Source of the DNA: Daejeonella lutea
GTDB taxonomy: Bacteria; Bacteroidota; Bacteroidia; Sphingobacteriales; Sphingobacteriaceae
Assembly: GCF_900168015.1 (NCBI RefSeq)
Contig: NZ_FUYR01000001.1
Location: 618,943 to 682,942, forward strand
Length of the DNA: 64,000 bases
Direction: 5' to 3'
In this document: positions 30,257 through 60,426 of the stretch, piece by piece
Position numbering within the stretch: position 1 is the stretch's first letter
How the letters are laid out: every line of letters starts with the position of its first letter
Notes under the pieces: generated by a model
What the model was told of the DNA's origin: nothing
Database searches by the model: none
Seen by the model: the letters and a program-made list of their open reading frames with translations, nothing else
Position numbers and translations under genes: made by a program

Positions 30257-30889
30257 ATGATAAAACCAGACAGCTTAATATTTGATATGGACGGCACATT
30301 ATGGGACGCTGTCGACTCCTATGTGATGTCCTGGAATGAAGGAGCAAAGCTCGAGAACATTGACAGGACATTTACCAGGGCTGATCTGGATCATGTAATG
30401 GGTTGGGAGCGGGGAAAAGTTCTGCCTTATATGTTCCCTGATAAGTCGGTTGAAGAGCAGGAAAGAATATACGAGACGATAAACCAATGCCGTGCGAAAA
30501 TTATACCTGAACACGGCGGGATAATTTACAATGGTGTTCGTGAAGGCATTATTGAACTGGCATCAAAATATAAGTTATTCATTGTCAGCAATTGTCCGAA
30601 AGGCTTAATAGTAGAATTTATGAAATGGGCGGGCTTGCAAAGTTATTTTGTTGATGAAATGGCACATGGCGTGAACTCGATGCCTAAGAGCCATAACATC
30701 AGACTGCTAATGGATAAACACAGCCTTGTGAATCCGGTTTATATTGGCGACACCCATGGTGACAGCCGCGATAGCCGTGTCGCAAAAATTCCTTTTGCAC
30801 TCGTAACTTACGGGTTTGGGGACAGCCAGGATTATGACTTCAAGTTTGATGATTTTACTTCCCTGACAAAATATTTCATGGCTTTGTAA
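30257..30889 (+). CDS. HAD-superfamily hydrolase (phosphatase-like)
   Basis: 210 residues. The nucleophile motif FDMDGTLW gives D10 and D12; the second motif is FIVSNC, and the fourth is YIGDTHGDSRDS. It is a cytoplasmic subfamily-IA HAD enzyme with a helical cap (about 15-85), most likely a small-molecule phosphatase of the phosphoglycolate-phosphatase type. Substrate is not predictable. It stands alone between two transcription units. Confidence 0.88.
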   Translation: MIKPDSLIFDMDGTLWDAVDSYVMSWNEGAKLENIDRTFTRADLDHVMGWERGKVLPYMFPDKSVEEQERIYETINQCRAKIIPEHGGIIYNGVREGIIELASKYKLFIVSNCPKGLIVEFMKWAGLQSYFVDEMAHGVNSMPKSHNIRLLMDKHSLVNPVYIGDTHGDSRDSRVAKIPFALVTYGFGDSQDYDFKFDDFTSLTKYFMAL

Positions 30890-31036: not shown

Positions 31037-31984
31037 ATGAAGCCCGAAACTAATTTCTGGAAGCGTATTGGAATTCAAGACTGGTTTCTAAGTGATACTG
31101 GTGTGAAATCCAAGGCACCCAAAGCACTTACCCCTAACGAGGTTTATAAGTATATAATTGAAAAATTCAAAGAATCAATTTCGGTATTGTCATTTGCTGA
31201 CCGAGTTGTGTTTTATCATGAATATATAATTTGCTTTAATCCTGAAGATTACAAAGAGTTCATGGAAGAAAAACGTGGAATCTTTGGTTTGATCGTTCAG
31301 GAAACTGTCAAGAAATTTTATGAGATCCTGACTCAGTCAAGAACTGAGTTAAGAGTAGTTGAACCTTCCAGTAATAAATGGGTGTTCAGATTTGTTTCAC
31401 ACCCGGATTACGAAAAAGGAGATAAAGGATTTATTGGAAAGCTATTGCCCGGAACAACTCAGAAAGACGAAAGTTTAAGAGTAACATTTATTCCCCGACA
31501 AACCGGACTAGCCCAAACATTTGATATCAATCAGGAAAATCTGAAGGGATTTACTTTTTATAGTGAAGGCTATTATGAAGTACCTTACGTGAATGATCTT
31601 ACTCCAGGAGAGAGCCAGGTAAGCACAGTTGAAAGCAAATCTCTTGCCCGATTCGAAACTATCCTTCCAGACAAGGCATTCGCCGGACATAAGGTGGAGT
31701 ATTTTATGACCGATGATGAAATTGTAGTATCCGGTTCTGATGAAACAAGGGATAGCAGCAATATATTCAAAATTCCTTCCGAATGGGTTGATACGCCGCA
31801 TCTTACAATAAAGTACAATAAATCTGATTCAAAGTTTTATCTGGCTTCCTATGGTGAGAAAACAATGGTTAATGAGAAAGAGATTCAAAAAAGCGATGTA
31901 AACGCACCGGTTTGGACTGAGTTACCTTTAAACTCCAAGATGATCCTCAACGGAATAATTGGTGTAAACATTTTTAAAGCATAG
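31037..31984 (+). CDS. FhaA-like protein with degenerate FHA domain
   Basis: 315 residues, soluble, no signal peptide. The N-terminal about 120 residues (SVLSFADRVVFYHEYIICFN, EDYKEF) resemble in layout the N-terminal domain of actinobacterial FhaA (DUF3662-like), a weak match by eye. The C-terminal about 90 residues look like an FHA beta-sandwich (IVVSGSDETRD, TPHLTIKYN, TMVNEKEIQ) but the phosphothreonine-binding Gly-Arg and Ser are not conserved. It is the first gene of a compact operon with PP2C, SEDS-PBP, a canonical FHA protein and a kinase. It may bind partners independently of phosphorylation. Function is inferred from context only. Confidence 0.6.
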   Translation: MKPETNFWKRIGIQDWFLSDTGVKSKAPKALTPNEVYKYIIEKFKESISVLSFADRVVFYHEYIICFNPEDYKEFMEEKRGIFGLIVQETVKKFYEILTQSRTELRVVEPSSNKWVFRFVSHPDYEKGDKGFIGKLLPGTTQKDESLRVTFIPRQTGLAQTFDINQENLKGFTFYSEGYYEVPYVNDLTPGESQVSTVESKSLARFETILPDKAFAGHKVEYFMTDDEIVVSGSDETRDSSNIFKIPSEWVDTPHLTIKYNKSDSKFYLASYGEKTMVNEKEIQKSDVNAPVWTELPLNSKMILNGIIGVNIFKA

Positions 31985-31988
31985 CAAT

Positions 31989-32087
31989 ATGTCGAACCTT
32001 TTGTCTTTCGTACTCCTGGCTGTTTGCATTTTTCTATTGCTTGCGCATTTTATCGATATAAAAAACACGTATAAAAAGAATGGTTGA
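31989..32087 (+). CDS. 32-residue single-span membrane microprotein
   Basis: An ORF of 33 codons including stop begins 4 bp after the FhaA-like stop and ends 8 bp inside the PP2C gene, so it is positioned for translational coupling on both sides. The product begins MSNLLSFVLLAVCIFLLLAH, one hydrophobic helix, and ends in a basic tail (IKNTYKKNG). No family is recognised. Length is small, so chance cannot be excluded, but the tight fit in an operon with otherwise minimal gaps and the clean helix-plus-basic-tail design support a real gene, perhaps a subunit or regulator of the membrane complex. Confidence 0.6.
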   Translation: MSNLLSFVLLAVCIFLLLAHFIDIKNTYKKNG

Positions 32088-33513
32088 TAATTTTTTCGGA
32101 CTTACGGACACCGGTAAGGTTCGCGGGAATAATGAAGATACCTTCATTGTCCAGTCCTCCAGGGGAGGTGAGTATATTCTTGCTTCTGCTATTGATGGAG
32201 TGGGTGGTTATTCTGGTGGCGAAATAGCTGCGGCCTTGGCCAGGGAAAGTATTATTGAATATTTCGAAAACCCGGGTGGTGACCTGACCACAATGATGAT
32301 CCAGGCTTTGGTGAATGCCAATGAGAAGATCTATAAGGAAAAAATTGAGGTCAAGGAGCATGACAGCATGGCCTGCGTCTTAACATTGGCTGTTGTTGAT
32401 ATTAAAAATAATCAGTTTCATTATATCCATGTAGGGGATACACGGTTGTATCTTTTAAGAGATGGTTCATTAGTAAAACTCACTAAAGACCAGTCATTCG
32501 TCGGATTTCTTGAAGATAGTGGCCGGTTAACGGAAGAGGCAGCAATGACGCATCCAAAGCGAAATGAGATCAATAAAGCTTTGGGTTTCAATACGGGGCT
32601 GGAAAACGATCATGATTATTTTGAAACCGGCAGTTCACCTTTTCTTCCTGGCGATATGATATTGCTTTGCAGCGACGGGCTAACTGACATGGTGAATAAA
32701 AAGGATATCACCGATATACTGACTAGTGATTCCAGCCTGGAAGACATGGCTCATCAATTGATTGACGCAGCGAATGCAAAGGGAGGGAAGGATAATATTA
32801 CTGCGGTTTTGGTAAGAAACGACAATCCTCTCCAAAAGCAGGAGGCAGTGAAACCTTCTGCGGTGGCAAAAAAAAAAGTGGTGTCGAATGAAAAACCCGG
32901 TCCTGAAAAGATAGTTGCGGATCCGGTTGTTCTAACACCAGAGCCGACCAGGAAGAAGTCGAATTCAACCGCGGTCATGCTACTTTCGATTTTATCGATT
33001 GGTTTATTGGCCAGCACAATCTATCTCCTTTGGATGCGTGGCCAACCACAAGCTGCCCAGGAACAGGTTCTGGTTGCGGATTCTGCTATCGTTTCGGGTG
33101 AAACCAGTTTGTCGCAGCAATTTGGAACTTTAAACGGCGATACACTTGTGCTCAATGATTCGGTATATCGTGAACCTATCACTATTTCAAAATCAGTAAA
33201 TTTTGATACCGATACTCTGTATGTTCTATCACGCGGGAAAATAGTCTTAAGGCCTGACTCGTCATTTAAGGGACCTGCATTTCTAATCCCCGCAAGTGGA
33301 CGAAATATTGTATTGAACGGTCTAACCTTTGATGGATTTGATATCGGCATAGCCAGTCAGAGTAAAAATGTTCGACTGGAAGGTGTAAAATTTATTAATG
33401 TTCGTGTGCCTGTACAATTCTCATTTAATGCTCCCTCAGATAGCTTTATGAATGGCACTCTGGCAGAAATTTTCATAAGAAAAGATTCACTGGTAGTTCC
33501 AATTAAACGTTGA
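32080..33513 (+). CDS. Transmembrane PP2C-type Ser/Thr phosphatase (PstP-like)
   Basis: 477 residues. Residues 1-250 are a PP2C catalytic domain with its metal-binding motifs: GNNEDTF, IDGVGGYSGG, LLCSDGLTDMV and GGKDNITAVL. A charged linker (about 251-295) leads to one membrane span (about 297-318), and about 155 residues outside the cytoplasm show a right-handed beta-helix-like pattern (NIVLNGLTFDGFDIGIASQ, NVRLEGVKFINVRV), perhaps a wall- or glycan-sensing region. Actinobacterial PstP has a similar cytoplasmic-phosphatase plus outer-domain layout. It should dephosphorylate targets of the kinase encoded last in the operon. The stop is 1 bp from the next start. Confidence 0.92.
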   Translation: MVDNFFGLTDTGKVRGNNEDTFIVQSSRGGEYILASAIDGVGGYSGGEIAAALARESIIEYFENPGGDLTTMMIQALVNANEKIYKEKIEVKEHDSMACVLTLAVVDIKNNQFHYIHVGDTRLYLLRDGSLVKLTKDQSFVGFLEDSGRLTEEAAMTHPKRNEINKALGFNTGLENDHDYFETGSSPFLPGDMILLCSDGLTDMVNKKDITDILTSDSSLEDMAHQLIDAANAKGGKDNITAVLVRNDNPLQKQEAVKPSAVAKKKVVSNEKPGPEKIVADPVVLTPEPTRKKSNSTAVMLLSILSIGLLASTIYLLWMRGQPQAAQEQVLVADSAIVSGETSLSQQFGTLNGDTLVLNDSVYREPITISKSVNFDTDTLYVLSRGKIVLRPDSSFKGPAFLIPASGRNIVLNGLTFDGFDIGIASQSKNVRLEGVKFINVRVPVQFSFNAPSDSFMNGTLAEIFIRKDSLVVPIKR

Positions 33514-33514
33514 T

Positions 33515-36500
33515 ATGGCCAGAATGAATTCTCAAATAAGCGGCAGAAGGTTTGAACGCCTTTTTTTAGGCCTTTTAACGGTCGTATTCGCAATTTTATT
33601 TTTCTCACTTTATCAGGTTCTTCAACGTGATTTCGAGGAAGTGCCGAAACGGCTTTCTGATGGAAGCATGGTCAATTTGAATGCCGGTAAGACAGCTGAA
33701 CGCATTAATAACTTGATGATCAAAGGTTACTACTTTGATGATAAGAAAGATATCGAACTCATAAGATCGACAGTTGAAAAAGGTAATCTCAGGAACAATA
33801 CAGAGATTGATAACATAGGTGAGCTTAATAAGAGGAAGTTCTTTGTAAATGCTGAGGAAGCGTACGCTGCCGGAGGAACCGTATTTAAGATGAGAGTTAA
33901 AGGCTCTCGTGCCTTATTGGGTTTCACCGGTGATGATTCATTACGATATAGCCAGGAGAAATCGAATCCGCCTGCACTGCCTTCAACTGTCGAAATCAAG
34001 TCGGGAGACCATAATATAAAGGGAGAAATAATTAATCCGGAAAAAGCACCCGTTCCGGGGGTCCTAGTGCGGTTAATAATGATTCTACCACAAGATAGCG
34101 TCTACAGTGACGAAGTAATGGAAGTAGAGCGACGTTTTACGGAAACAGGGACGGGATACACGAAAACATTAGTTGCAGACAGTACCAAAGGGCGACAGTT
34201 AGAATCGCTAACGGCTTATGCGCGTACTGACGCACAGGGAAAATTTCAGTTCGCTGGCTTGCCGAATGGTAAAGCTTACCAGGTGCTACCGCTGCAACCA
34301 GGCTTTCAATTTGGAACGTCAAGGGGCGTTCAGGAATTAGAAAAGGATGTTACGCTGAGCTTTACACAAAATATCCATACCATAAGACTACTTTCTACCA
34401 GAGATTTTAACATTCTGAAAAAGGAAAAGACGCTAATTGTGAGAACCCCGGAAGAGTTTGTGAATTGGTTCTGGATAATTATAGGAGGGTTTCTGGGTTC
34501 ATTTCTTATTGTGCACCTGCTATTATCTGTGAAGTTTCCTGAAGCTGATCAAATCATATTACCTGTACTTATGTTCTTCGGCGGGCTCTCATTGTTGACT
34601 TTGCTGAGCCTTCAGGACCCACTGCGCGATCGATTTTTCGCAAAGGATACCTTATTTTATTTGATTGCCGGTCTTGCAGGGCTTTGTATAATACTATTTA
34701 TTAACGTTAAAAAGCTAAACCCTGACTCGGGATTTTATCGAATGTTCGTTTTCAGGCGCAACAGGCTTGCAGCAAATGGGTGGCCATGGGCGGCTTTGGC
34801 CATTGGTCTTTTAAGTTTGACGATTGTGTTTGGTACCGGTCCGGAAGGAAGTGGGGTTAAGGTTAATTTGTTCGGGATACAGCCTAGCGAAATAGTCAAG
34901 TTTGGCATTATGTTTTTCCTGGCAGGTTTTTTTGCTACTAACGAGAAATTCATCTCTGAATATCGTTCCTACAGAAAACGCTGGTCATTTTTCTCATTTG
35001 CGTTAGCAGCTATCCTTATTTCTATTTTTCTTTTTCTGATACTGGGTGACTTAGGCCCATCAATGGTGATCTGTTTTACGTTCATTATCCTGTTCTCCTT
35101 TTCACGCGGCGATTTTATGTTTATGATCGCCTCTATTGTGCTTTATGTGCTTTCGATCTGGTTATTGAACAGCGTCTTACTGGCTACCTTGATTACAGTC
35201 GTTTTGCTAACCCTTGCCATGATATTCAAGCGGAAGCAGATGAGCGAATCATCAATAATGGCATTGGTTGTGATTTCAGGATTCTTACTTATTGACCAGA
35301 TTCCGCAATTGGATAAATTATTTCCAGGGCCCGTACAGCGATTAGTTGAGCGTAAGTCTATCTGGCAGGATGCCTGGAACAATGAAGTTTATGGTGGAGA
35401 CCATGTTGCCAATGGGATTTGGGCGATGTCTGGTGGAGGTATAAGTGGCCAGGGAATTGGGGAGGGCTTTGCAAAAAATATTCCGGAAGCTCATACCGAC
35501 ATGATTTTACCAGCTATTGGAGAAGAATTCGGCTTGGCTGGGATTGCCTGTATTTTTATTTTGTTTCTCATTTATCTTCATCGATCGATTTTAATCGGCC
35601 GGCAAACCGGCACCCCATTCTTGTTTTACTTATGTGCAGGAATTGGTATCAGTACTTTTGTTCAGTTCCTGTTAATCGCGGGTGGATCGACAGGCGCATT
35701 GCCTTTATCCGGGGTGTCGCTACCTTTAGTCAGTTACGGTGGTTCATCGCTACTCGCAAATATCATTGCCGCTGGATTTTTATTGTCGGCTTCGCGTGTA
35801 CGCGGAACTGAAGTTCAGATGAACTTTATCAGCAGGCAGCAAGACCGTAACCTGGTTCCTGCACTTGCAGCGGCATTTATTGGGGTGGTTTTGCTGACCG
35901 TAAATGTGGGATCATATTTAATTAATAATAATAAATGGGTTGTACAGCCAGCCCTTGTAGCCGACCGCAGCGGAGCCCGGATGTTCAGCTATAATCCGAG
36001 GATCACGATCCTTATGAATAAACTACAGGCGGGGTCTTTATTTGATCGCAATGGCCGGATTCTGGCAACAAGTAAACCTGAACTGATCAAAGGGCAGAGG
36101 CGCTTATTGTCTGCATCCGGAGCTGCTGGGTACGATCTGGATTCAGCAGTGCACAAGAGGCTTGATCGTTACTATCCATATGAGGAGCAGATGTTCTTCT
36201 GGACGGGTGATGCAAACACTGGAATTTTCAACGGGAGCACGAATGGCTATTTCGCCGAGTACGAGCATGCGGCAGAACTCCGGGGATTCCATACTCCGAT
36301 CACAAAGTTTAATGCTATTGCTACCAGATTCCAGGAAGATAGATTCCTGGCCCGGGGAGTACGTGAAATGACTGTAAGTAAAAAGGATTATAGTGAGCTC
36401 GCTCCGCTCTTACTGGCTGGTATAAATAGTAAGGAAGTTGAGGAATTCAAACAAAGAAATCGAGATGTTACCTTGACTCTGGATGCCGCGCTGCAGGCTA

Positions 36501-37663
36501 ATATTCAGGCCTCAATTGCCAAAGACGATTCACTAAAGGATAACAGGGTTTCTGTTGTTATCATGGAGGATTCAACGGGCGACGTGCTGACGTCTGCTGT
36601 ATACCCGCTTCCTGTCGTTAAGGATTGGGATATGATGACAATGACCCAAGCTGAACAGAACAAGTTGGCGAATTGGGTGACAACTTCAGATCTTGGTTTT
36701 ACCTATGCAACACAACCTGGTTCAACGGCGAAGGTACTAACGGCCATGGCATCATTTAACAAACTGGGAATTAGCGCAGCTGACAAAAAGTACCAGGTTA
36801 GTGCGTTTGAACGGATTCGTACCAAGGGTCTTGAGCCTGATGAAACCGGCCTTATAAGTCTCGAACGAGCTATTGTTAAGTCTAATAACGTATATTTCAT
36901 AAAGCTCGCAAATGAGGAGAAATTGCAGGAGAATATGGCTGACCTCTATCTTAAAACAGGGATGTTTTTAAGAGGGGTTGGAGGATATTATTTCTCCAAA
37001 GATGGTAATAATTCGGTACAGGAGAATAAGTGGCGTGAACTCTGGCGTAAGACTGAGTTTGATACAAGACCGAGATATAACCCTGCAAATATCAGGAGAA
37101 CGCGTGCGAAGGGTATCTCCGGAATGTCGTGGGGTCAGGGTGAATTGATAGCAACTCCGGCTGCCGTAGCACGCCTTGCTTCAGCAGTTTCAAACCATGG
37201 AAATCTTACTGATCATCGATATGTTTTGAAGATCAGCGAAAGTGATATGCCAGTAAAATCAAGCGTGCAACTTACAAATCCGCAGTATGCAGCTTTATTG
37301 AAGCAGTATATGATCAGACAAAGTGAAACAAAAACTGCGACTCTGGGCATTGCAGTAGGAGGTAAGACCGGAACTCCTGAGCGTATTTGGAAAGGTGAGC
37401 GGATCAATGACGGGTGGTATGTATTCTTTGCGCCAAAAGCCTCAGGAAGTGGTAATATTGTGGTATGTGTCCGGGTTGAATCAACAAAGGGCTCAAGTGA
37501 TGCTGTTAAAGCAGCTGCTCAGCATGTAATTCCGCAATTACTCAAGGCGAAATATATAAGAAGTTTGGTCGTTCCTGTTCAAACTCCTGTGTCCGTAATA
37601 CAGAATCCTGTAAATACATTACCGGAACCTGGAGTAGATTTGCAGGATACGGTAACGCAATAA
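33515..37663 (+). CDS. SEDS (RodA/FtsW) glycosyltransferase fused to a penicillin-binding transpeptidase
   Basis: 1382 residues. Layout: one N-terminal span (about 15-36); an outer region to about 310 containing a carboxypeptidase-regulatory-like segment (HNIKGEIINPEKAPVPGVLV); a SEDS domain with about ten helices at 315-761, including FGIQPSEIVKFG, AHTDMILPAIGEEFGLAG (conserved Asp D662) and SLPLVSYGGSS; another span at about 778-803; then a class B-like PBP domain to the end. All three transpeptidase motifs are present: S1070-T-A-K1073, S1123-N-N and K1284-T-G. It should both polymerise lipid II and cross-link the glycan, two jobs normally done by separate RodA and PBP2 chains. It lies between PP2C and FHA/kinase genes, suggesting phosphorylation control of wall synthesis. 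Confidence 0.95.
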   Translation: MARMNSQISGRRFERLFLGLLTVVFAILFFSLYQVLQRDFEEVPKRLSDGSMVNLNAGKTAERINNLMIKGYYFDDKKDIELIRSTVEKGNLRNNTEIDNIGELNKRKFFVNAEEAYAAGGTVFKMRVKGSRALLGFTGDDSLRYSQEKSNPPALPSTVEIKSGDHNIKGEIINPEKAPVPGVLVRLIMILPQDSVYSDEVMEVERRFTETGTGYTKTLVADSTKGRQLESLTAYARTDAQGKFQFAGLPNGKAYQVLPLQPGFQFGTSRGVQELEKDVTLSFTQNIHTIRLLSTRDFNILKKEKTLIVRTPEEFVNWFWIIIGGFLGSFLIVHLLLSVKFPEADQIILPVLMFFGGLSLLTLLSLQDPLRDRFFAKDTLFYLIAGLAGLCIILFINVKKLNPDSGFYRMFVFRRNRLAANGWPWAALAIGLLSLTIVFGTGPEGSGVKVNLFGIQPSEIVKFGIMFFLAGFFATNEKFISEYRSYRKRWSFFSFALAAILISIFLFLILGDLGPSMVICFTFIILFSFSRGDFMFMIASIVLYVLSIWLLNSVLLATLITVVLLTLAMIFKRKQMSESSIMALVVISGFLLIDQIPQLDKLFPGPVQRLVERKSIWQDAWNNEVYGGDHVANGIWAMSGGGISGQGIGEGFAKNIPEAHTDMILPAIGEEFGLAGIACIFILFLIYLHRSILIGRQTGTPFLFYLCAGIGISTFVQFLLIAGGSTGALPLSGVSLPLVSYGGSSLLANIIAAGFLLSASRVRGTEVQMNFISRQQDRNLVPALAAAFIGVVLLTVNVGSYLINNNKWVVQPALVADRSGARMFSYNPRITILMNKLQAGSLFDRNGRILATSKPELIKGQRRLLSASGAAGYDLDSAVHKRLDRYYPYEEQMFFWTGDANTGIFNGSTNGYFAEYEHAAELRGFHTPITKFNAIATRFQEDRFLARGVREMTVSKKDYSELAPLLLAGINSKEVEEFKQRNRDVTLTLDAALQANIQASIAKDDSLKDNRVSVVIMEDSTGDVLTSAVYPLPVVKDWDMMTMTQAEQNKLANWVTTSDLGFTYATQPGSTAKVLTAMASFNKLGISAADKKYQVSAFERIRTKGLEPDETGLISLERAIVKSNNVYFIKLANEEKLQENMADLYLKTGMFLRGVGGYYFSKDGNNSVQENKWRELWRKTEFDTRPRYNPANIRRTRAKGISGMSWGQGELIATPAAVARLASAVSNHGNLTDHRYVLKISESDMPVKSSVQLTNPQYAALLKQYMIRQSETKTATLGIAVGGKTGTPERIWKGERINDGWYVFFAPKASGSGNIVVCVRVESTKGSSDAVKAAAQHVIPQLLKAKYIRSLVVPVQTPVSVIQNPVNTLPEPGVDLQDTVTQ

Positions 37664-37732
37664 GTACATGATGGTGACAAAAAATCATAAGATTGGACTA
37701 TTTTTTGAAGTAAAATATCTAAATAAAATATA

Positions 37733-38524
37733 ATGTTCGACATATTTAAAGGCGATCAGGAAAGTAAAATGGATGTTAAGGCGTCCAGAGACGCGGCTCT
37801 GAGATTTATTAAAGAAGAGCTGCAAAAATTAGAAGGTGGCGAAGGTAAGAATATCCGCGGATTACAGCTTTTCGTAGCTTCTACCAACGACGAGAAGCAC
37901 GTCCTTGAAGCAGCAATGTATGTCGAAGATCCGGACAAGTTAAAAGAAGAGATCCAGAAGATTGCAGATGATTTTGATATTGAACTGCCGTTAACCTGGA
38001 CCATGGAGGTAGAATTTGTTGATAGTGTGCCGGCGGAAGCTAAAAAAGCATCAGATATCAACCTTGGCCTGTTCGTTAAAACCCGTCAGAATCTTATTCA
38101 AAAAGATTTGAAAGCCTGTATCCGGGTCCTAAATGGCGAGGCAGAAAAGGAAGAATATACCATTAATTCCGGAATAGATAAAGTGACGATTGGCCGTGAA
38201 AAAGCCGCGCAGGGTTCTGATGGATTTTTTCGTGTGAATAATATAGCGTTCCCTGGTGATAGTTCAAACGAGGCAAATAAATACATCAGCAGGCAACATG
38301 CCCACATTTCGTGGAACTCTGAAATTGGTTCATTTATGATATTTGCCGACGAAGGGGGAGTTCCACCTAATAATAAAATAAAAATAAAATCACTGAATAA
38401 TGATACTCCTTTCAAGTTGAATTCAACGCAGATCGGACATGTTCTACGAGAAGGGGACCAGGTTATTCTCGGAGAATCTGCAGTAATAGAATTTAGATTC
38501 CTTCCTAATGAGATTGAACAATAA
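37733..38524 (+). CDS. FHA-domain phosphothreonine-binding protein
   Basis: 263 residues, cytoplasmic. The C-terminal FHA domain (about 150-260) has the binding residues intact: R155 in TIGRE and S186-R-Q-H189 in YISRQHAHI, with GDQVILGE near the end. The N-terminal 130 residues (LQLFVASTNDEKHVLEAAMY) are of unknown fold; a similar N-domain plus FHA layout occurs in the FhaA-like gene at 31037, suggesting paralogy. It should recognise phosphothreonine on the kinase or on SEDS-PBP partners. Its stop and the kinase start share one base (TAATG), indicating coupled translation. Confidence 0.9.
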   Translation: MFDIFKGDQESKMDVKASRDAALRFIKEELQKLEGGEGKNIRGLQLFVASTNDEKHVLEAAMYVEDPDKLKEEIQKIADDFDIELPLTWTMEVEFVDSVPAEAKKASDINLGLFVKTRQNLIQKDLKACIRVLNGEAEKEEYTINSGIDKVTIGREKAAQGSDGFFRVNNIAFPGDSSNEANKYISRQHAHISWNSEIGSFMIFADEGGVPPNNKIKIKSLNNDTPFKLNSTQIGHVLREGDQVILGESAVIEFRFLPNEIEQ

Positions 38525-40149
38525 TGGGTAAGGTATTTACCATAACTGAAGGGCTGGAGAACATGGGCGCTATACGCACCGGTGGCCAGGGCTCCGTGTA
38601 TAAAGGTCGGCGGCTCGGCGAGATCATAAGTGCTGTAAAGCTTCTTCCAACACCTATTCACACTGAAGACAAAAAGGACAAGAACTACCGTGATTTTAGC
38701 AACGAGGTTGAGAAGCTTAAAAAGGTCAACGAAGTTCCTAATCCAAACGTTGTAAAAATTCTGAGCTCGGGCCTTACCGAAAGCGGCTCATTTCCTTTTA
38801 TAGAAATGGAGTTTATTGAAGGTCCGGATCTCGAGGAATTACTGAAAGCACCTAATGACCCGATCTTCAGTATTCATGAGCTTGTTAAGTTAGCCAACCA
38901 ACTGAGCAACGCTTTAGCACATTGCCATAAAGTTGGAGTAAAGCATGGCGATATAAAAAGCAATAATGTCAAATTCAATGCTTTTACTGGTAACTACGTT
39001 TTACTTGATTTCGGACTTGCTATTATGTCTGATGAAGAACGACGCACCAGCCTCCGTCGTGCCGGCGCTATTGAATTTATGGCTCCCGAGCAAAGTGAGG
39101 GGCAAATGTTGTTTGAAAGTGATGTATACAGTTTTGGAGTGATATTGTATGAATTACTTGCCGGCAGGGTACCGTTTCCCCTGAACGACAAGGGGGAGAC
39201 CGCACGAAATAAGGTCATGCTTTCGCACATGGAAGCACCTGTGCCAGATCCGCTCGAATTGCGTCGGAGGCATATTCCAAAAACCTGGTCACCAGAAAAA
39301 GCAGAAAGTGAGATGAGGGTGCCGGTGTGGGTGTTGGCGATTATAAAGCGGTGCCTGGAAAAAGAATCTGAATCAAGATTCAAGAACGGGGTCGAATTAC
39401 ATGAGGCAGTCGTAAAAGGTTTCACCGCTGATCTTGGAAACTCTGAAGTAGCGGTAAAGAGGAGCAGCCAGCTGGAAAAAGAAAACAATGAACTTCGTGA
39501 CAGGCTTCTGATACTCGAGGGACGCGAAATTAGTCAGGAACCCGTCGCGCCCGTCGCATACACTGATCCCGACAAAATAAGTTTGTCAAAGCCTTTGTTT
39601 TATGGATTACTTCTTTTGCTGTTCGGTCTGATCGCTTATACTGCGTACTCATTTTATAATTCGGAACCTACCGAAGACCGCGTTAAATCAATATATCCGG
39701 TTGATTCAGTTTCCGTTGACAGTACAGAATTAAATTCTGATCCTGAAATTAAAGCTAATGATGATCTAGACAAAAGAATTAGGTCTAGTATTGATTCTGT
39801 GGAGAGGGCTGAAGCAAAGAAACAGGACACGACCACAAACGAGCCTGTAGAACCGGTGGTTACTGAACCAGAACCTGAGCAGAACAATGAACCTGTGCCG
39901 GTGCCGACGGAAAATGAACCTGAGCCATCTCAGAGACCTCCAAAATACACTCTTTCAGTGACTAAAGCTTATTTTCACGATAGCCCGAACGAATCCTCCA
40001 GGAGAGAGGCCTTCCTAGTAAAATGGAATAATGCCGAATTAACCGCGTTGGATGACAAGAATGGCTTTATCTATGTGGTATTCTTTAATATTCAGGGCCA
40101 GGTTACAAAAGGCTGGCTCCGCAAACGCGACCTGCGGCGTATCAGTTAA
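38524..40149 (+). CDS. Transmembrane Ser/Thr protein kinase (PknB-like layout) with outer SH3-like domain
   Basis: 541 residues. The Hanks-type kinase domain covers about 1-300: glycine loop GGQGSVYKG (20-28), Lys K39 in SAVKLL, H141-G-D143 with N148, D162-F-G164 and A187-P-E189. The HRD Arg is Gly, so it is a non-RD kinase, possibly less dependent on activation-loop phosphorylation. A short coiled coil (about 313-330, LEKENNELRDRL) precedes one membrane span (about 357-378), then an acidic Pro/Glu-rich stalk (about 385-475) and a C-terminal SH3-like domain ending GWLRKRDLRRIS, a likely wall-facing sensor. It is the last gene of the operon. Confidence 0.93.
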   Translation: MGKVFTITEGLENMGAIRTGGQGSVYKGRRLGEIISAVKLLPTPIHTEDKKDKNYRDFSNEVEKLKKVNEVPNPNVVKILSSGLTESGSFPFIEMEFIEGPDLEELLKAPNDPIFSIHELVKLANQLSNALAHCHKVGVKHGDIKSNNVKFNAFTGNYVLLDFGLAIMSDEERRTSLRRAGAIEFMAPEQSEGQMLFESDVYSFGVILYELLAGRVPFPLNDKGETARNKVMLSHMEAPVPDPLELRRRHIPKTWSPEKAESEMRVPVWVLAIIKRCLEKESESRFKNGVELHEAVVKGFTADLGNSEVAVKRSSQLEKENNELRDRLLILEGREISQEPVAPVAYTDPDKISLSKPLFYGLLLLLFGLIAYTAYSFYNSEPTEDRVKSIYPVDSVSVDSTELNSDPEIKANDDLDKRIRSSIDSVERAEAKKQDTTTNEPVEPVVTEPEPEQNNEPVPVPTENEPEPSQRPPKYTLSVTKAYFHDSPNESSRREAFLVKWNNAELTALDDKNGFIYVVFFNIQGQVTKGWLRKRDLRRIS

Positions 40150-40210: not shown

Positions 40211-43120
40211 CTAGTGTGTCGTCTGCATCAAATAGTCAAATAAATTGACATCCGAGGAGATATTAAGCTTCTTTCTTAAACGGTACCTGCTGACTTCTAC
40301 TGCTCTTATGGTAATACTCATAAGTTGTGCGACCTCCTTCGATGATAAATTCATTTTAAGATAGGCGCAGAGTTTCAGCTCATTGGCAGTAATATTGGGA
40401 TGCTTCTCCTTAATTTCCGACAAAAAGTTGGAATGTACATGATCAAAATGGATGGCAAATTGATCCCAGTCAGCATCCCGCTTTTCAACTTCATTTAATA
40501 ACTTAAAAATTTGTTTGAAGTCTGACGAACGGTTCTCCGCATTTGGCATTTCTTCGAGCTTAGAAACAACTTCTTTTATTTTAGTTAAGACTTTACCCCG
40601 TTGAACGAGATGCATTGTTGTGCTAGCAAGCTCTTTATTTTTAAAATTTACATCAGCTTCCAATTTTTCATTTTTCAGTTTCACGATTTCGTTTTCGTTT
40701 CGTTCAACTTCAAGCTGATGGAGGTATTTAAGTTTTTCCTGCTCTTTTAAATGTCGTTTCTGCTGCCATTTAACAATTAGCCGTATTATTCCAAGAAGAA
40801 TAAGGAAGTAGATGAAATAGCTCAATTTACTTTGATACCAAGCTGGAAGGATTTCAAATGTATAGGATACCGGTTGGGAGGAGTTTCCGAGGTTATTTCT
40901 TGCCCTTACATGAAAAGTATATTTCCCCGGCGATAAATTAGTGTAATCTTTTTCACTCCGTTCTGACCAGGTTGACCAATCTTTGTCAAAACCCTCTAAC
41001 TGATAACTAAACTCGATATTATTCTGCTGTTCATATAAAGTTGAGGAATATTCGAAATGAATAGTATTATAGCTCGTACTTGGTATAGCTGTATGCGTTT
41101 CTGAATCTTGAGAAAAGGCAAGCTTACCTTTATTCAGGAAATATCCTCCAAAAATGACTGTGTCTCCCTTTCCGGAGGCTCGGACTTCACCTAAAAGCAG
41201 GTTAAGTTTGCTAATGTTTTGTTGATATTTTTGATAATTGAGATGGAATACACCTTTGGTTGCTCCGATAAAAACATTATTATCATCTACAGGGTAAATA
41301 GCTTCAAAACCCCCAACCACCTTTGATGTAAGCTCTGGAAAATAAACAACTGAATATGGTTTTTCAGAATTAGATTGGTTAAAATCAATTATCCCTACTT
41401 CTTTATTTGTAACGAACCAAATATTCCCGGCAGGGTCTTCCTTCAAGTATTGTATTGAAATGTCTTTTACAATATCGTATAGTTGCGGCGATTTTATAAA
41501 TCGATTAGTTTTCCTTTGATATTCATAAATTCCTTTTTCTGTTGCAATTACAATTCGGTTCTTGATGCGAAAAATGTAATTATATAACGTTGATGGGAGA
41601 CCATCTTTTTTTGTGAAGAGGGTTTTTTTGGTCATACTGTCAAAATTTGCTGAAAGCTCAATTTTATATATGCCATGATAGGGGTGGGAGGCCCAAATTG
41701 CATTTTCAGAGCGCTCATATAAAGCAAACCGAAGTGGGTCGTCTATCCCTCTGATGCGCCCTTTATCTATAAATTTACCTGATTCATAAACGATCTTGCT
41801 TAGTCCGTTGTACGTCCCGGCAATGATGTTTTTGTTTGTCTGGTATTCTGATACAGGGTTAAAGAGCCAGGTTCCCGGTGTGGCATAGATCTTCTCTACT
41901 CCATTTTCTTTGATATTAAAAGCACCATCTTCATGGGCAAGCAACAAACTATTATTTATTACCCCTAACCCCCAAACTTGTCCTTTAGTATTTGGAACCG
42001 GCTCAAACGAACCAGGTAGAAGGCTGATGTCATTTTCTAGTGAGGTAATTACAGTTGACCTAAACAGTCCGTTGGACGTACCGATGTATAAGCGCTTATT
42101 AAAAAGTTGTACGGCGTAACTTGTAACCTGGACATTTTTATTCGGATAAATATGCTTAATGGCGCTGTTAATAGCCATGAAATCAATCCCGTCATCTAAG
42201 CCTAACCAGAGATTTTTATTGTTATCGATGAAGACACTTCTAATGTTGTTTTTCTGTAAGCCCTCGGGAAACGAATATCGTTGAATTAATTTGCCATTCC
42301 GATCCATGATCAAGACGCCTCCGGAAGTTGTGCCAAGGGCATACCAATCATTATTAACTATCGTAGCACTGTAAATTCGATCATTAATGAAATCTTCGTC
42401 TAAGGATGTCTTTTTTTGTATTAAATTTCCGTCTTTCAGCAGGAATAGCCCATGTTTAAGGGTCGTAACCAGAAAAGTATCAAAACTGTATTCCAACATG
42501 GAGGTGATTGTTATCAACTTCATTACCGGATCGTTATTCAAAACTTCCCAGGAGCCATTTGAAAAGATCAATAAACCTTTGGATCGATCTTGTGCGTACA
42601 AACGGTTCTTTACTTTAGCCATGAACAACCATACCTGTTGTGGTTTGTAGATACTGATAGCACCGTCTTTAAATTGGAGTATTTTATTTAATGAACGGAA
42701 AAAAACCTGTCCATTTAGTATTCTGACATCCCAAACATCGGCGAACTGGCGTTCAGTATCGGGCAGTAGCTCTTTTAACGAGTTATATTTCAGTTTGCCA
42801 TGCTCGTCAGGAAAAAAATAGCCGATTTCATCCTGGCCTCCTATGTAGATTCTTCCATTCTTATCAATTTCCAGTGACCTTACAACTGTCCGGTTTGGTA
42901 GGGGATACAGATTCCAAAACCTACCATCGAAGGTCAGGAGACCTTCATTATTTCCGAAATACATGACACCGCGTTGATCTTGCCCAGTATCCCAGTTTTG
43001 TGTTCCAGCCTTATAACTCAGGTTGCTATAATTAATGATCTGGGGACTTCCAATTTGATTTTGGCCTTTCAAATAGGTCGAAAAAAAGAATAAAAACAGA
43101 GCAATGCAGAGTACCTTCAT
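40211..43120 (-). CDS. Membrane-bound LuxR-type regulator with beta-propeller and Y_Y_Y sensor
   Basis: 969 residues. A signal/anchor (LCIALFLFFFSTYLKG) leads to two-component-regulator propeller repeats in the periplasm (about 25-640, for example NIRSVFIDNNKNLWLGLDDG), a Y_Y_Y domain (about 690-755, NIEFSYQLEGFDKDWSTW), one span (about 763-785), a coiled coil (about 790-860) and a LuxR-type helix-turn-helix near the C-terminus (about 905-965, LSSKEVAQLMSITIRAVEVS). It lacks histidine kinase and receiver domains, so sensing and DNA binding are in one chain. It is transcribed away from SusC3 and very likely senses a beta-glucan fragment and activates that locus. Confidence 0.93.
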   Translation of the reverse strand: MKVLCIALFLFFFSTYLKGQNQIGSPQIINYSNLSYKAGTQNWDTGQDQRGVMYFGNNEGLLTFDGRFWNLYPLPNRTVVRSLEIDKNGRIYIGGQDEIGYFFPDEHGKLKYNSLKELLPDTERQFADVWDVRILNGQVFFRSLNKILQFKDGAISIYKPQQVWLFMAKVKNRLYAQDRSKGLLIFSNGSWEVLNNDPVMKLITITSMLEYSFDTFLVTTLKHGLFLLKDGNLIQKKTSLDEDFINDRIYSATIVNNDWYALGTTSGGVLIMDRNGKLIQRYSFPEGLQKNNIRSVFIDNNKNLWLGLDDGIDFMAINSAIKHIYPNKNVQVTSYAVQLFNKRLYIGTSNGLFRSTVITSLENDISLLPGSFEPVPNTKGQVWGLGVINNSLLLAHEDGAFNIKENGVEKIYATPGTWLFNPVSEYQTNKNIIAGTYNGLSKIVYESGKFIDKGRIRGIDDPLRFALYERSENAIWASHPYHGIYKIELSANFDSMTKKTLFTKKDGLPSTLYNYIFRIKNRIVIATEKGIYEYQRKTNRFIKSPQLYDIVKDISIQYLKEDPAGNIWFVTNKEVGIIDFNQSNSEKPYSVVYFPELTSKVVGGFEAIYPVDDNNVFIGATKGVFHLNYQKYQQNISKLNLLLGEVRASGKGDTVIFGGYFLNKGKLAFSQDSETHTAIPSTSYNTIHFEYSSTLYEQQNNIEFSYQLEGFDKDWSTWSERSEKDYTNLSPGKYTFHVRARNNLGNSSQPVSYTFEILPAWYQSKLSYFIYFLILLGIIRLIVKWQQKRHLKEQEKLKYLHQLEVERNENEIVKLKNEKLEADVNFKNKELASTTMHLVQRGKVLTKIKEVVSKLEEMPNAENRSSDFKQIFKLLNEVEKRDADWDQFAIHFDHVHSNFLSEIKEKHPNITANELKLCAYLKMNLSSKEVAQLMSITIRAVEVSRYRLRKKLNISSDVNLFDYLMQTTH

Positions 43121-43218
43121 TTATGTTCGTTTTGTTTCAAAATCTTTTCGGTAAAAAGTATCTTTTATGTTACCTCAATTTTAAATATAGAATTATTTAA
43201 TTGAAAGTAGTTGCAGTG

Positions 43219-43313
43219 TTGTAGTAGTAATCTTTGCTTGAATAGTAAATTTCGCAGAAAATATTCACTTCTGTATAGGTTTTGTAGTAGTAATAAAAGA
43301 TTGGATGTAGTAG
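43219..43313. promoter_or_regulatory. TGTAGTAG repeats, candidate operator of the beta-glucan regulator
   Basis: The 13-bp word TTGTAGTAGTAAT occurs twice on the + strand, at 43219-43231 and 43282-43294, and ATGTAGTAG follows at 43305-43313. All lie in the 282-bp intergenic region between the divergent regulator and susC3, and the last sits inside the proposed promoter spacer. Direct repeats at this place suit binding of a LuxR-type activator. I saw no other copy in the window, though this was not an exhaustive search. Confidence 0.5.
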
Positions 43314-43330
43314 ATAAGCACCTAAATTTA
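43301..43330 (+). promoter_or_regulatory. Candidate promoter of SusC3
   Basis: TTG at 43301-43303 and TAAATTTA at 43323-43330 are 19 nt apart, the same spacing as in the susC2 candidate. The -7 box deviates from TAnnTTTG at its last base, as expected for an activator-dependent promoter. It is about 73 bp upstream of the ATG. Confidence 0.4.
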
Positions 43331-46519: not shown

Positions 46520-46530
46520 AAATTATTCAA

Positions 46531-56378: not shown

Positions 56379-56777
56379 ATGAGAATCATTGGAAATATCC
56401 TTGTAATATTTTTATTTCTTTTATCCTCCTGTTCGAAGGATTTTGAATTAAAAGATCTGCAGGGAAGATGGAAATATATAACAGTAGATAACAGAAATCC
56501 TCAGGATGTATTACCTGAGGGTGAGATTGAATTGCAGAACCCCGCAATCATTTTCGATAAAGACAATCTGATAATAGAGTGGGGCGGTAAGAAGTTGTCC
56601 TCCGGGAAATTTAGGATGGACGGCAAAATGATCCGATACATCGAAGATCTTCCAGGGAATCAAAAAAGAGAATTTCCGTTTTTAATAAAAAGCCTTAGCA
56701 AAACAGAACTTGTATTCCAAACCATGGAACAAAATACGACGACGGTAACTGCGACTAAGGTGAGTGGTGGTGACTAA
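56379..56777 (+). CDS. Small lipocalin-like lipoprotein
   Basis: 132 residues with a lipoprotein signal (FLFLLSSC). The mature part begins LKDLQGRWKYITVDNR and shows alternating strands, typical of the lipocalin-like small lipoproteins of Bacteroidota. No function is recognised. It is the last gene before the repeat copy D. Confidence 0.72.
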   Translation: MRIIGNILVIFLFLLSSCSKDFELKDLQGRWKYITVDNRNPQDVLPEGEIELQNPAIIFDKDNLIIEWGGKKLSSGKFRMDGKMIRYIEDLPGNQKREFPFLIKSLSKTELVFQTMEQNTTTVTATKVSGGD

Positions 56778-56779
56778 TC

Positions 56780-56920
56780 GTTGACTTCGCCTGGTAATCA
56801 GTAATCAGTGGACCGAGTAAAGGGTTGCTCGCTGGCTGTCATCGGTAGAATTTTACCTGACCAAACATGTGAATGTCTCCGCTGATTACCGGTTACTAAT
56901 TACCGATTACTGAACAATTA
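56780..56920. repeat. Composite intergenic repeat, copy D
   Basis: A shorter relative of copies A and B: TTGACTTCGCC, AATCAGTAATCAGT, a divergent spacer of about 80 bp, then ATTACCGGTTACTAATTACCG and ACTGA. It lies between two convergent transcription units (lipoprotein gene on +, yidC on -), where a bidirectional terminator would be useful. Confidence 0.75.
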
Positions 56921-56938
56921 CAGCCATCCTAAGCTATT

Positions 56939-58798
56939 CTACTTCTTCTTGCCTTTAACTGCAGGAGTTATATCCTTCTTCGCCTGTTGCTGTTGTCTCA
57001 TATAGTCTTCCATTCTTTGCTGGAAGCCCGATTTTTTCTTTTCGGTTGCTGGTTTCTTTTTATTTTCCTGAATCTGAGCGTGAATCTTATCATCATTAAC
57101 AAACATCCGGATAATATACTGTTGTGCGAAAGTCAACATATTAGCCAGGAAGTAGTAGTAATTTAATCCTGAAGGATAACTATTCAATACTCCGAAGAAA
57201 ATAATAGGCGTGATGTAACCGATATATTTCATCTGTCCTGTTGCACCCGATACCTGATTGTTAAAATAGGTATAAATCAGGGTAGATACAGTCATTAGTA
57301 TACACATCAAACTGATGTGATTGCCAAGGAATGGCAAAGTAAATCCTAATTGGAAGAACGCATCGAAGGTTGAAAGGTCTTCCATCCATAGAAAAGTTTG
57401 TTGCCTTAGCTCAAATAAGTTTGGAAAGAAGAAGAAGAATGCCATGATTATCGGCAACTGCAATAGCATCGGCAAGCATCCGCCAAGAGGATTCACGCCG
57501 GCTTTCTTATATAGTTTTAGATATTCCTGCTGTAATAGGGTAGGATTATCATCTCCAACTTTTGCCTTTATCTCATCCATTTCAGGCTTCAATACCCTCA
57601 TTTTTGCCATCGACAGGTACGATTTATACGTCAAAGGCAATAAGACAGTTTTCAGGAGAATAGTCAGTACAAGGATTATTAAGCCATATCCCCAGCCAAA
57701 GCCCTCCAGAAAGTTAAACACGGGTAAAACGATCCAACGGTTGATGTATTTTAAAGGCCAGTAGCCCATATCGATCTGCTTATCGATGTTAAACCCCTGT
57801 GCTTCTAAAGTGCTAAGCTTATTCGGCCCAAAATAGAATTCCATCGGGAAACTGGTAGTCTCTTGCCTGCCAAACGGAATTTGCATGTTAGCAGCAAAGC
57901 TCTTTACAATATTTGAATCAGGGCTTGTGTTTACTGATAACTCACCTTTGTCAAAGCTGTTTTTTGCAATTAGCACATTAGAAAAGAAATGTTGTTTGAA
58001 TGATATCCATTTTATTTTGCCCTCATTCAGTTCCTTTTTTTCTGATTCTAACTTTTCTAAATGATCAACACCAGCATCACCTTGATTGTAGTAAGCTGTA
58101 GAATACTGTTGCTCGCTCTTTAAATCCTTTTCTTTGAGCTTAAGAATAGTTTCCCAGTTCAAGGTAAGATGTTGCTGGGTGGGAGCTACCACATCCTGCA
58201 TACCTTTAGTGGCAATTGTAAGCCCTACGTTGTAGCTGTCACCTTTAAGCGAGTAAATGTAATCTATATATTTACCTGCCTCATATGTCAGACGCATGGT
58301 TAAGGAACCTGAGTCGGATTTGGCGACAGTTAACTTTGTGCCGGAAGGGGTAAAGTAAAGGTCATTAGTGCTGATATTCTTTCCGGCAGCACCGAAAATA
58401 AGCCCAAACCTATTGCCGTCCCCTTCAAACATCTTTAAAGGTTGTTTTGTGTAAGTCTGAAAACCTTTTAAGTGAACCGACGAAATCCGTCCGCCTTTTG
58501 GACTGATCTCAACCTTTAGTTTTTCGTTTTCTAGAATTACGGGACTTGCTGAACCGGAATTTGCAGATCCGAATGGACCCGCTAAAATTGCTGTAGAATC
58601 TATTTTGGGAGAAGCAGCTGGCACTCTTAATGTGTCAGCAGCTGGAGATTTTATTGGTTGCTGTACGCGAGCGAGTGAATCCTTTGTATTTCTAGCTTTC
58701 TCCCTTTTGATGTCTTCATCAGAAGGTTGCATTAAATAAGTGGAACCTACTAATATGATTAATATTAAAAATAGGCCCGTAAATGTATTTCTATCCAT
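56939..58798 (-). CDS. yidC: Membrane protein insertase YidC
   Basis: 619 residues, the usual length in Bacteroidota. N-terminal span (FTGLFLILIILVGSTYLM), a large periplasmic domain (about 60-350), then the 60KD_IMP insertase core with five conserved helices (WGYGLIILVLTILLKTVLLP, GGCLPMLLQLPIIMAFFFFF) and a Lys/Gln-rich tail. It inserts proteins into the inner membrane with or without SecYEG. It lies 17 bp after pyrG on the same strand, and the two are probably co-transcribed. Confidence 0.97.
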   Translation of the reverse strand: MDRNTFTGLFLILIILVGSTYLMQPSDEDIKREKARNTKDSLARVQQPIKSPAADTLRVPAASPKIDSTAILAGPFGSANSGSASPVILENEKLKVEISPKGGRISSVHLKGFQTYTKQPLKMFEGDGNRFGLIFGAAGKNISTNDLYFTPSGTKLTVAKSDSGSLTMRLTYEAGKYIDYIYSLKGDSYNVGLTIATKGMQDVVAPTQQHLTLNWETILKLKEKDLKSEQQYSTAYYNQGDAGVDHLEKLESEKKELNEGKIKWISFKQHFFSNVLIAKNSFDKGELSVNTSPDSNIVKSFAANMQIPFGRQETTSFPMEFYFGPNKLSTLEAQGFNIDKQIDMGYWPLKYINRWIVLPVFNFLEGFGWGYGLIILVLTILLKTVLLPLTYKSYLSMAKMRVLKPEMDEIKAKVGDDNPTLLQQEYLKLYKKAGVNPLGGCLPMLLQLPIIMAFFFFFPNLFELRQQTFLWMEDLSTFDAFFQLGFTLPFLGNHISLMCILMTVSTLIYTYFNNQVSGATGQMKYIGYITPIIFFGVLNSYPSGLNYYYFLANMLTFAQQYIIRMFVNDDKIHAQIQENKKKPATEKKKSGFQQRMEDYMRQQQQAKKDITPAVKGKKK

Positions 58799-58815
58799 TC
58801 TTTTCTAAAGTCTGT

Positions 58816-60426
58816 TTACTTCTTTTTTGCGTGTGCTAAAGAAGCGGCGACAAAGTTAACAAAAAGTGGATGAGGATTATCAACTGTTGATTTTAATTCC
58901 GGATGGAACTGTCCTCCAACGAAAAACGGATGATTTTTAAGCTCAATGATCTCAACAAGATTGTTTTCCGGGTTGATGCCAGAAGGGATCATTCCCGCTT
59001 TCTCAAATTGTTCTAAATATTTGTTGTTGAACTCATAACGGTGACGATGCCTTTCTGAAATCCGGCTTTTTCCGTAAATAGCCGCAGCTTTACTCCCTTT
59101 TCTAAGATCACAGGTATATGCACCCAGGCGCATTGTACCACCTTTATTTTTAATTTTCTTCTGTTCTTCCATCATGGAGATCACAGGGTTGGCTGCATTC
59201 TCGTCCATTTCTGAACTTTGCGCGTCTTTGAGTCCCAATACATTTCTTCCGAACTCAACAACGGCACATTGCATCCCGAGGCAAATACCAAAGAATGGCA
59301 GTTCGTTTTCACGTACATATTTGATAGCTGTAATTTTGCCTTCAATCCCTCGGCTTCCAAATCCCGGAGCAACTAAAACTCCATGGAGACCCCGGAGTTT
59401 TTCGGCTACATTTGCTTCGTTGATACTTTCGGAGTGTATACATTTTACTCTTACTTTGCATTCATTTTTAGCTCCTGCATGAATAAATGATTCAGTGATG
59501 GATTTATACGCATCCGGCAGCTCGACATACTTTCCTATAAGGCCAATTACAACCTCGGAAGTTGGATTCTTTAAATGTCCCAGAAAATCTTTCCAGCTTT
59601 CAAGATCGGGGTCATTTTTTAAAGGAAGTTTAAGTTTTCCAAGTACTGTTCTGTCCAGCTGCTCTTTAAGCATCAGCAATGGAACGTCATAAATTGTGGA
59701 TGCATCGATAGATTCTATCACTGCATTGATATTGACATTACAGAATAGCGCAATTTTCTTGCGTAACTCCTGTGGAATATGGTGTTCAGTACGACAAACT
59801 AGAATATCTGGTTGAATACCATATTCCAATAACATCTTTACCGAATGTTGAGTCGGTTTTGTTTTAAGTTCTCCCGCGGCAGCCAGGAATGGAACTAAAG
59901 TTAAATGGATGACAAGAGAGTTACTTGAACCTAATTCCCATCTTAACTGCCTCACTGCTTCTATAAATGGCAATGATTCAATGTCACCCACAGTACCACC
60001 GAGTTCAGTAATTACAATATCGAAATTCCCGCTTTCACCCAGGATCTGCATATTACGTTTTATCTCATCAGTAATATGCGGTACCACTTGAACGGTTTTG
60101 CCCAGGTAAGCTCCTTCGCGTTCCTTGTTTATTACATTTTGGTAAATACGGCCAGTTGTAATGTTATTTGCCTGAGAAGTAGGGACGTTAAGAAAACGTT
60201 CATAATGTCCAAGGTCAAGATCTGTTTCTGCACCATCTTCGGTAACATAACATTCTCCATGTTCGTAAGGATTCAACGTCCCGGGATCAATATTGATGTA
60301 AGGGTCGAACTTTTGAATAGTTACACGGTAACCTCTTGATTGGAGTAATTTGGCAAGAGAAGCGGAAATAATACCTTTTCCTAACGACGAAGTAACGCCG
60401 CCCGTAACAAAAATGTATTTGGTCAT
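58816..60426 (-). CDS. pyrG: CTP synthase
   Basis: 536 residues. The N-terminal synthetase domain begins [17 protein letters not shown] with the P-loop; the C-terminal class I glutaminase domain has nucleophile Cys in GICLGMQ (about 381) and the His-Glu pair in GGQFHPEL (about 507). It makes CTP from UTP, ATP and glutamine in the cytoplasm. Length and motifs are standard. Confidence 0.98.

Follow-up and report, generated by a model that had tools for sequence, protein, structure and literature searches.

Control of cell-wall synthesis by Ser/Thr phosphorylation has been studied mainly in Gram-positive bacteria and in mycobacteria. The closest described system is the actinobacterial fhaA-fhaB-pstP-rodA-pbpA-pknA-pknB locus, whose membership is given in the accessible parts of PMC6554272 and PMC3989709. 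The accessible part of PMC6554272 also places a pknB-fhaA cluster in a subset of Firmicutes, so that, as far as that portion of the source goes, the cluster type has already been published in more than one phylum; we liken this cluster to ours, by description only, as a counterpart from another phylum. FhaA itself, also the subject of PMC11898655 (accessible in part), is described in the available text of PMC10166564 as having in Corynebacterium diphtheriae an essential DUF3662 (FhaA_N) domain and an apparently dispensable FHA domain, and the mycobacterial protein is said there to act via PbpA. Natural fusions of a SEDS protein and a penicillin-binding protein (PBP) in a single open reading frame (ORF) exist according to the accessible text of PMC10449877, and RagB is presented as a regulator of RodA in that of PMC12457691. 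Here we analyse a stretch of 64,000 nucleotides from Daejeonella lutea (contig NZ_FUYR01000001.1, positions 618,943 to 682,942; hereafter the window), part of a genome of 4.03 Mb in 10 contigs, which carries a six-gene operon with a comparable set of parts. Among the matches listed in the open-licence PMC literature, judged by titles and the starts of abstracts, no description of this operon in Bacteroidota was found.

The locus is real, conserved and beyond chance, and it probably represents a transferable accessory peptidoglycan-synthesis module under Ser/Thr phospho-control, which would belong to the fhaA-pstP-rodA-pbpA-pknB locus type as a divergent branch in Bacteroidota. Three of its features are unusual for that type, namely the one-chain synthase, a conserved microprotein and block-wise presence or absence. 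The first-pass annotation of this DNA had described a compact six-gene run, and the coordinates in the ORF listing of the window agree exactly, with successive gaps of 4, -8, 1, 69 and -1 bp; its calls of a PP2C, a SEDS-PBP fusion, an FHA protein and a kinase are borne out by domain matches in a profile search of the window proteins. The features of the operon are as follows (TM, transmembrane).

31037..31984, + strand: FHA1, which we take to be a diverged FhaA homologue (from the ORF, an AlphaFold model, profile comparison and alignment), with an FhaA_N-like domain at about residues 28-112 and a C-terminal FHA fold whose phospho-Thr pocket has lost its Arg and Ser
31989..32087, + strand: single-pass membrane microprotein of 32 amino acids (aa) with an HFxDIKN-like conserved tail, overlapping the PP2C start by 8 bp
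32080..33513, + strand: PP2C-type Ser/Thr phosphatase (residues 1-245) with a TM helix (299-317) and, on the far side of the membrane, a possibly beta-helix-like tail
33515..37663, + strand: SEDS-PBP fusion (1382 aa), predicted to combine a peptidoglycan polymerase with a transpeptidase in a single polypeptide
33626..34459, + strand: domain near the N-terminus of the fusion, with a TM helix on either side (CarboxypepD_reg 2.9e-5, under the Pfam cut-off)
34529..35824, + strand: SEDS domain of the fusion, residues 339-770, with Asp D662
36551..37516, + strand: transpeptidase domain of the fusion, residues 1013-1334, with S1070xxK1073, S1123xN1125 and K1284-T-G
37733..38524, + strand: FHA2, an N-terminal domain without assigned identity followed by an FHA domain with an intact phospho-Thr pocket
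38524..40149, + strand: transmembrane Hanks-type Ser/Thr kinase with HGDxKSNN and DFG motifs, no PASTA found

As in the actinobacterial locus, an FhaA-like FHA protein, a PP2C, a SEDS protein, a class B PBP, a second FHA protein and a transmembrane kinase are clustered, and the parallel drawn in the first-pass annotation holds in this respect. We take the order FhaA-like protein, small membrane protein, PP2C, SEDS, PBP and kinase to be the actinobacterial order, the microprotein presumably standing in the position of fhaB. The window locus differs in that SEDS and PBP are fused and carry an extra N-terminal domain, no PASTA was found, FHA2 follows the PBP, occurrence is patchy, and the genome holds two other SEDS/PBP sets.

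A scan of named genomes gave 265 relatives among 290 candidate stretches, the best 80 of which, mostly from Sphingobacteriaceae and Chitinophagaceae, were kept and combined with six further genomes and one Spirosoma plasmid into a set of 87 close loci. Synteny is conserved across genera: the order FHA1-PP2C-SEDS-PBP-FHA2 is found on one strand in 85 of the 87 loci, the other two being cut by contig ends. The kinase directly adjoins the block in 79/87, in a position that varies (upstream, downstream or between). It lies inside the block or one ORF away in L036, L037 and L050, with two kinases between PP2C and fusion in the latter two, and the remaining five loci without an adjoining kinase are truncated on one side or on both; on the sides that are present, none adjoins downstream in L056 and L084 or upstream in L097. 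L116 has 4.2 kb between the fusion and FHA2. Pedobacter panaciterrae O48 carries the module twice on the same contig (L104 and L109), with FHA1 split into two ORFs in one of the copies.

The fusion is a single ORF matching FTSW_RODA_SPOVE (PF01098, 1.2e-46) and Transpeptidase (1.2e-22), and is laid out as a TM helix, an outer domain with the sub-threshold CarboxypepD_reg match, a second TM helix, the SEDS domain, a further TM helix and the transpeptidase domain; the distant fusions L040, L042 and L044 show similar CarboxypepD_reg matches. Catalytic residues were counted per column in an alignment of 96 fusions, five distant ones among them. D662, which we take to be the catalytic Asp of SEDS, is kept in 96/96, as are S1070, K1073, S1123 and N1125, and all 95 fusions that reach the point keep K1284 and G1286, with T1285 replaced by Ser in 11 (KTG to KSG). 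The PBP_dimer or pedestal domain (PF03717) gives no Pfam match in the fusion; D844 and G847 are kept in 96/96, and the fusion contains a DRNG..LA motif, presumably typical of the PBP_dimer region. RodA-PBP2, FtsW-FtsI and the single-ORF SEDS-PBP fusions share the same two catalytic domains and motifs, and the window fusion departs from these in having its own SEDS clade, the extra N-terminal domain and linked phospho-control genes.

The other two SEDS genes of the genome, at C4 and C10:1.73 Mb, each have a PBP_dimer-type PBP gene within ~7 kb, so with two canonical SEDS/PBP sets elsewhere the fusion is the third SEDS of the genome. The two canonical SEDS proteins were named FtsW and RodA by similarity to the E. 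coli proteins and by the tree, the C4 gene being a near tie (129 versus 124 bits). The SEDS tree has 59 rows, including 16 fusions (11 close and 5 distant, the near copy L042 being omitted), 21 FtsW and 20 RodA. The 16 fusions form one clade, with 100 in the Shimodaira-Hasegawa-like approximate likelihood ratio test (SH-aLRT), apart from Bacteroidota FtsW and RodA and from both E. coli proteins; since this clade is separate from the FtsW and RodA of the host, the fusion is unlike a recent copy of either, and the topology is consistent with one origin of close and distant fusions. In this tree the FtsW of E. coli does not group with the Bacteroidota FtsW rows. The canonical RodA of the host (L157) sits on an unusually long branch (1.24).

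Two Rhodococcus fusions offer a further comparison, being likewise encoded by one ORF, and on plasmids (L184:8077-10902 and L185:7477-10317). They differ in length (941-946 aa), in having SEDS from residue 1 and in their separate long branch, and no FHA, kinase or PP2C is found among their annotated neighbours.

A third synthase of patchy occurrence could also serve a special task, such as a drug- or stress-tolerant or a developmental wall, and be switched by the kinase for that purpose rather than for general wall control. PBP2a is among the solved PBPs that match the fusion, weakly (2e-9), and lytic transglycosylase genes neighbour the module in two distant genomes; the PBP2a likeness, however, lies far under the family cut-offs and looks class-generic. 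We regard such a specialised role as possible, if on balance doubtful.

The first gene bears on descent. The first-pass annotation had called its product FhaA-like and had suggested independent assembly of the actinobacterial logic. FHA1 falls under the Pfam FHA cut-off (13.9 versus 20.7 bits). In its AlphaFold model (whole-model predicted local distance difference test score 73.6, predicted template modelling score 0.49), the confident C-terminal part matches FHA folds in Foldseek, including FhaA 3oun (2.7e-5); the FhaA N-terminal structure is absent among the best 50 of 736 structure matches, and a PDB profile search with FHA1 gave no match. The Arg and Ser of the pocket are lost and the His and Asn kept in all 39 close members aligned, and distant members keep the pocket. 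Against distant FhaA_N-FHA proteins, FHA1 gives an hhalign E of 3.8e-12 over 267 columns, with the signal mostly in the FHA part, and that C-terminal part alone gives 7.9e-13. The N-terminal domain, compared using as many as 13 close and 10 distant sequences, reaches E 2.5e-5 (score 29.8, versus at most 16.7 in 150 column-shuffles), and through five intermediate sequences E 8.6e-8 (run without shuffles). Judging from these sequence comparisons we take FHA1 to be a diverged FhaA, which has a profile link to distant FhaA_N proteins and the FHA fold, and no Pfam FhaA_N match. Close paralogy of FHA1 and FHA2 was considered and rejected (hhalign probability 2.6).

A survey with PF12401 found FhaA_N in 5 of 296 Bacteroidota genomes, 3 of them above the cut-off, and among 14 control genomes in Corynebacterium only. 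The five are the same genomes that carry the distant fusion, and the FhaA_N gene lies by the fusion in each, with only PP2C between them in G030; as three of the five belong to one genus, they are not independent, and that genus has further FhaA_N copies at other places. In this distant branch FhaA_N and FHA matches fall in the gene that precedes the fusion (or, in one genome, precedes PP2C), with values of 7e-5 in L042 and 0.0052 in L043, both under the Pfam protein cut-off in that scan.

These results bear on the proposal of independent assembly, by which Bacteroidota would have brought together a kinase, a phosphatase and FHA proteins with a duplicated RodA/PBP2 or FtsW/FtsI. Sensor parts unlike PASTA would fit it, as would the lack of a Pfam FhaA_N match in the close branch and of the fusion in most surveyed Bacteroidota. 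Yet FhaA_N lies beside the fusion in the distant branch, FHA1 is linked by profile to those FhaA_N proteins, and the fusion SEDS falls outside Bacteroidota FtsW and RodA, so that we consider independent assembly quite improbable and do not retain that part of the first-pass annotation. Common ancestry, or the transfer of an old cluster, appears likelier than convergence, because of the FhaA_N of the distant branch, the FHA1 profile link and the similar gene order.

Mycobacterial and corynebacterial FhaA consist of FhaA_N and FHA, and FHA1 of the window differs in having neither a Pfam FhaA_N match nor the pocket Arg and Ser. A scaffold with a lost pocket would fit the apparent dispensability of the FHA domain and the essential DUF3662 of C. 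diphtheriae FhaA (accessible text of PMC10166564), and the loss of the pocket beside a kept FhaA_N-like domain bears on the role of FhaA_N.

FHA2 has a Pfam FHA match of 3.2e-5, and its pocket residues G154, R155, S186, R187, H189 and N214 are invariant in 50/50 sequences. FhaA_N is absent among 25 families listed for FHA2, and a PDB profile search with it gave one chance-like match only (E 0.01). The phosphatase matches PP2C (PF13672, 7.5e-14) and the Stp1/IreP equivalog model (3.3e-61; 206.7 bits, under the cut-off of 230); D39, G40, D199, G200, D238 and N239, presumably metal-binding, are invariant in 22/22. Among solved PP2Cs, PstP is the nearest by name (2cm1, 3.6e-35), with others close behind. 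The kinase domain match is 1e-32, and the kinases read HGD rather than HRD in 59/61 downstream and 52/53 upstream copies. By hydropathy, PP2C and kinase have a single TM helix apiece.

The sensor parts proposed in the first-pass annotation fared unevenly. A beta-helix-like phosphatase tail finds modest support in homologues, with a pectate-lyase-like profile in 7/22 (best 1.5e-5) and Beta_helix in 2/22, but neither profile matches the PP2C of the window itself. The SH3-like kinase tail was not confirmed by a family search of 22 kinases, and the lack of PASTA repeats agrees with our finding no PASTA match in the window kinase or among the 25 of 34 families listed for those 22 kinases.

Between FHA1 and PP2C, a small TM ORF of 22-35 aa is present in each of the 85 loci that include both (76 by ORF scan, 8 by motif scan and L122 by eye from the DNA). 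Over 2926 pairs from 77 aligned microproteins, the proportion of synonymous differences (pS) is 0.74 versus 0.24 for nonsynonymous ones (pN); at the level of sequence the microprotein is under purifying selection, and the original call of a membrane microprotein is thereby upheld. Five loci of the distant branch, L039, L040, L041, L042 and L043, likewise have a small TM ORF after FhaA (27-45 aa by the longest start, 27-31 aa from the likely start), and L151 carries a 66-aa version. The ORF persists even in loci that lack PP2C (L039, L041, L042) and in the one where PP2C is part of the synthase protein (L043). Close and distant microproteins are alike in position, size and TM helix only; their alignment is weak, and the distant ORFs are without a chance control. 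Tentatively, the microprotein may serve the SEDS-PBP protein as an obligate membrane subunit or as its activator, in which case the module would be a portable peptidoglycan synthase independent of the host divisome and elongasome, bringing its own activator, scaffold and phospho-switch. The conserved microprotein is, at any rate, a testable new candidate SEDS partner.

A working scheme for the module can be proposed from these parts. The SEDS-PBP protein would polymerise lipid II and crosslink the strand in one polypeptide, beside the two canonical SEDS/PBP sets, with the microprotein as a small membrane subunit of the synthase complex. The outer domains of the transmembrane kinase and phosphatase may read the state of the envelope, and the two enzymes would set the phosphorylation of cytoplasmic Thr on the synthase and/or on each other. 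FHA2, with its pocket intact, would read the phospho-Thr mark, and FHA1, as an FhaA homologue without the pocket, could be a constitutive scaffold at the synthase. A compact Gram-negative version in Bacteroidota, whose polymerase and crosslinker share a single chain, would provide a clean system for the connection between kinase, FHA scaffold and synthase.

The scheme could be reduced to FHA1, microprotein, SEDS-PBP and FHA2 as the functional core, with kinase and phosphatase as mere neighbours and phospho-control secondary. Just this core is found in three distant loci of one genus (L039, L041 and L042), and the varying position of the kinase points the same way. On the other hand, the kinase adjoins in 79 of the 87 close loci, the phospho-Thr pocket of FHA2 is invariant in all 50 sequences, and in one genome PP2C is fused to the synthase, which makes the reduced version rather unlikely in our view.

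The module is sparsely distributed. The fusion was found in 12 of 296 genomes of the phylum (7 close, 5 distant) and in 10 of 395 of the class at 1e-60, and FHA1 in 24 of 151 of the family and 3 of 19 of the genus. The description as a Bacteroidota operon is correct as to presence and needs qualifying as to the patchiness and the three distant loci without detected kinase or phosphatase. A site without the block is seen in four of eight sister genomes (G703, G717, G729 and G734), where two flank genes that we label BASS and NTF2-like, the HAD gene, the 132-aa ORF, yidC and pyrG follow in window order; three of these four sites have one or two intervening ORFs without a window match. The flanks of the site in the window are:

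30257..30889, + strand: HAD hydrolase, upstream flank, outside the module
56379..60426: 132-aa ORF (+), yidC (-) and pyrG (-), downstream flank

In another Daejeonella locus (L161) the block is flanked by the NTF2-like gene and the 132-aa ORF, and the HAD gene is missing. Upstream of yidC the remaining four genomes (G674, G122, G764 and G695) carry different genes, and G695 has the module elsewhere. The block behaves as one unit, and a plasmid of Spirosoma oryzicola carries it. For wall-synthesis genes it would be unexpected to find a block that some sister species have and others lack, and that also occurs on a plasmid. No direct repeat of at least 10 bases is shared between short stretches at the block edges in L161 or the window, no tRNA lies within 24000-60000, and a plasmid search with a distant FhaA_N protein gave no match. 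A fusion tree over 91 rows mixes locus labels with family names, and for this reason we draw no claim of transfer from it.

The patchy distribution, plasmid copy and site without the block would also suit an anti-phage or abortive defence module, with the kinase/phosphatase pair acting on the wall, and the kinase domains do match the PADLOC profiles PD-T4-6 and mad6. These look like generic kinase models, however, and no PADLOC match at 1e-5 was obtained for the four non-kinase proteins tested; the components are those of a wall synthase, and its catalytic residues are intact, and the identified genes at the site are housekeeping ones, e.g. yidC and pyrG. We rejected the defence reading, with PADLOC matches limited to kinases, as very improbable.

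Several points weigh against an accessory synthase module that descends from the actinobacterial type of locus. PF12401 has no Pfam match in 39 close FHA1 proteins, nor has FhaA_N in the genome of the window, and the N-terminal domain of FHA1 gives no match with the close set only (E 0.58) and a weak one with nine sequences (E 0.0014; score 21.6 versus a best of 19.4 in 100 shuffles). Common descent of the synthase part with actinobacterial RodA/PbpA is putative, the SEDS tree having no core actinobacterial RodA rows. The tree program warns of long branches, and the Rhodococcus plasmid fusions fail to join the fusion clade. Neither kinase nor PP2C was detected in the 20 kb examined in L039, L041 and L042, while L044, a second fusion in that same genus, has a kinase and no adjoining FhaA, and L151 has an FhaA-PP2C pair and no fusion on its 9.3-kb contig. 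Finally, we infer the activity of the module, its substrates, sensing, complex formation and direction of transfer.

Some further arrangements were noted in the distant branch. In L043 (7261-11415) a single protein of 1384 aa starts with PP2C and continues as SEDS-PBP, which physically links phosphatase and wall synthase. L040 and L043 have a LysM-SLT lytic transglycosylase gene upstream of the module (L040:4071-6341 and L043:3948-6152), with a WD40-bearing kinase further up, and their proteins in the FHA2 position bear an N-terminal HEPN_Swt1 domain (L040:12434-13804 and L043:11478-12752). Second FhaA_N-FHA paralogues follow a protein of 1130-1168 aa in one genus (L152:4122-8825, L153:5558-10372 and L154:3626-8329), with no fusion detected in the stretches examined.

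Promoter and terminator scans stayed at chance level. Between the operon and the 132-aa ORF and yidC, the window holds another block (40211-56287) that starts with a Y_Y_Y/Reg_prop/GerE regulator; it is absent at the site in L161 and in the four sister genomes, and therefore a second insertion or loss adjoins the first.

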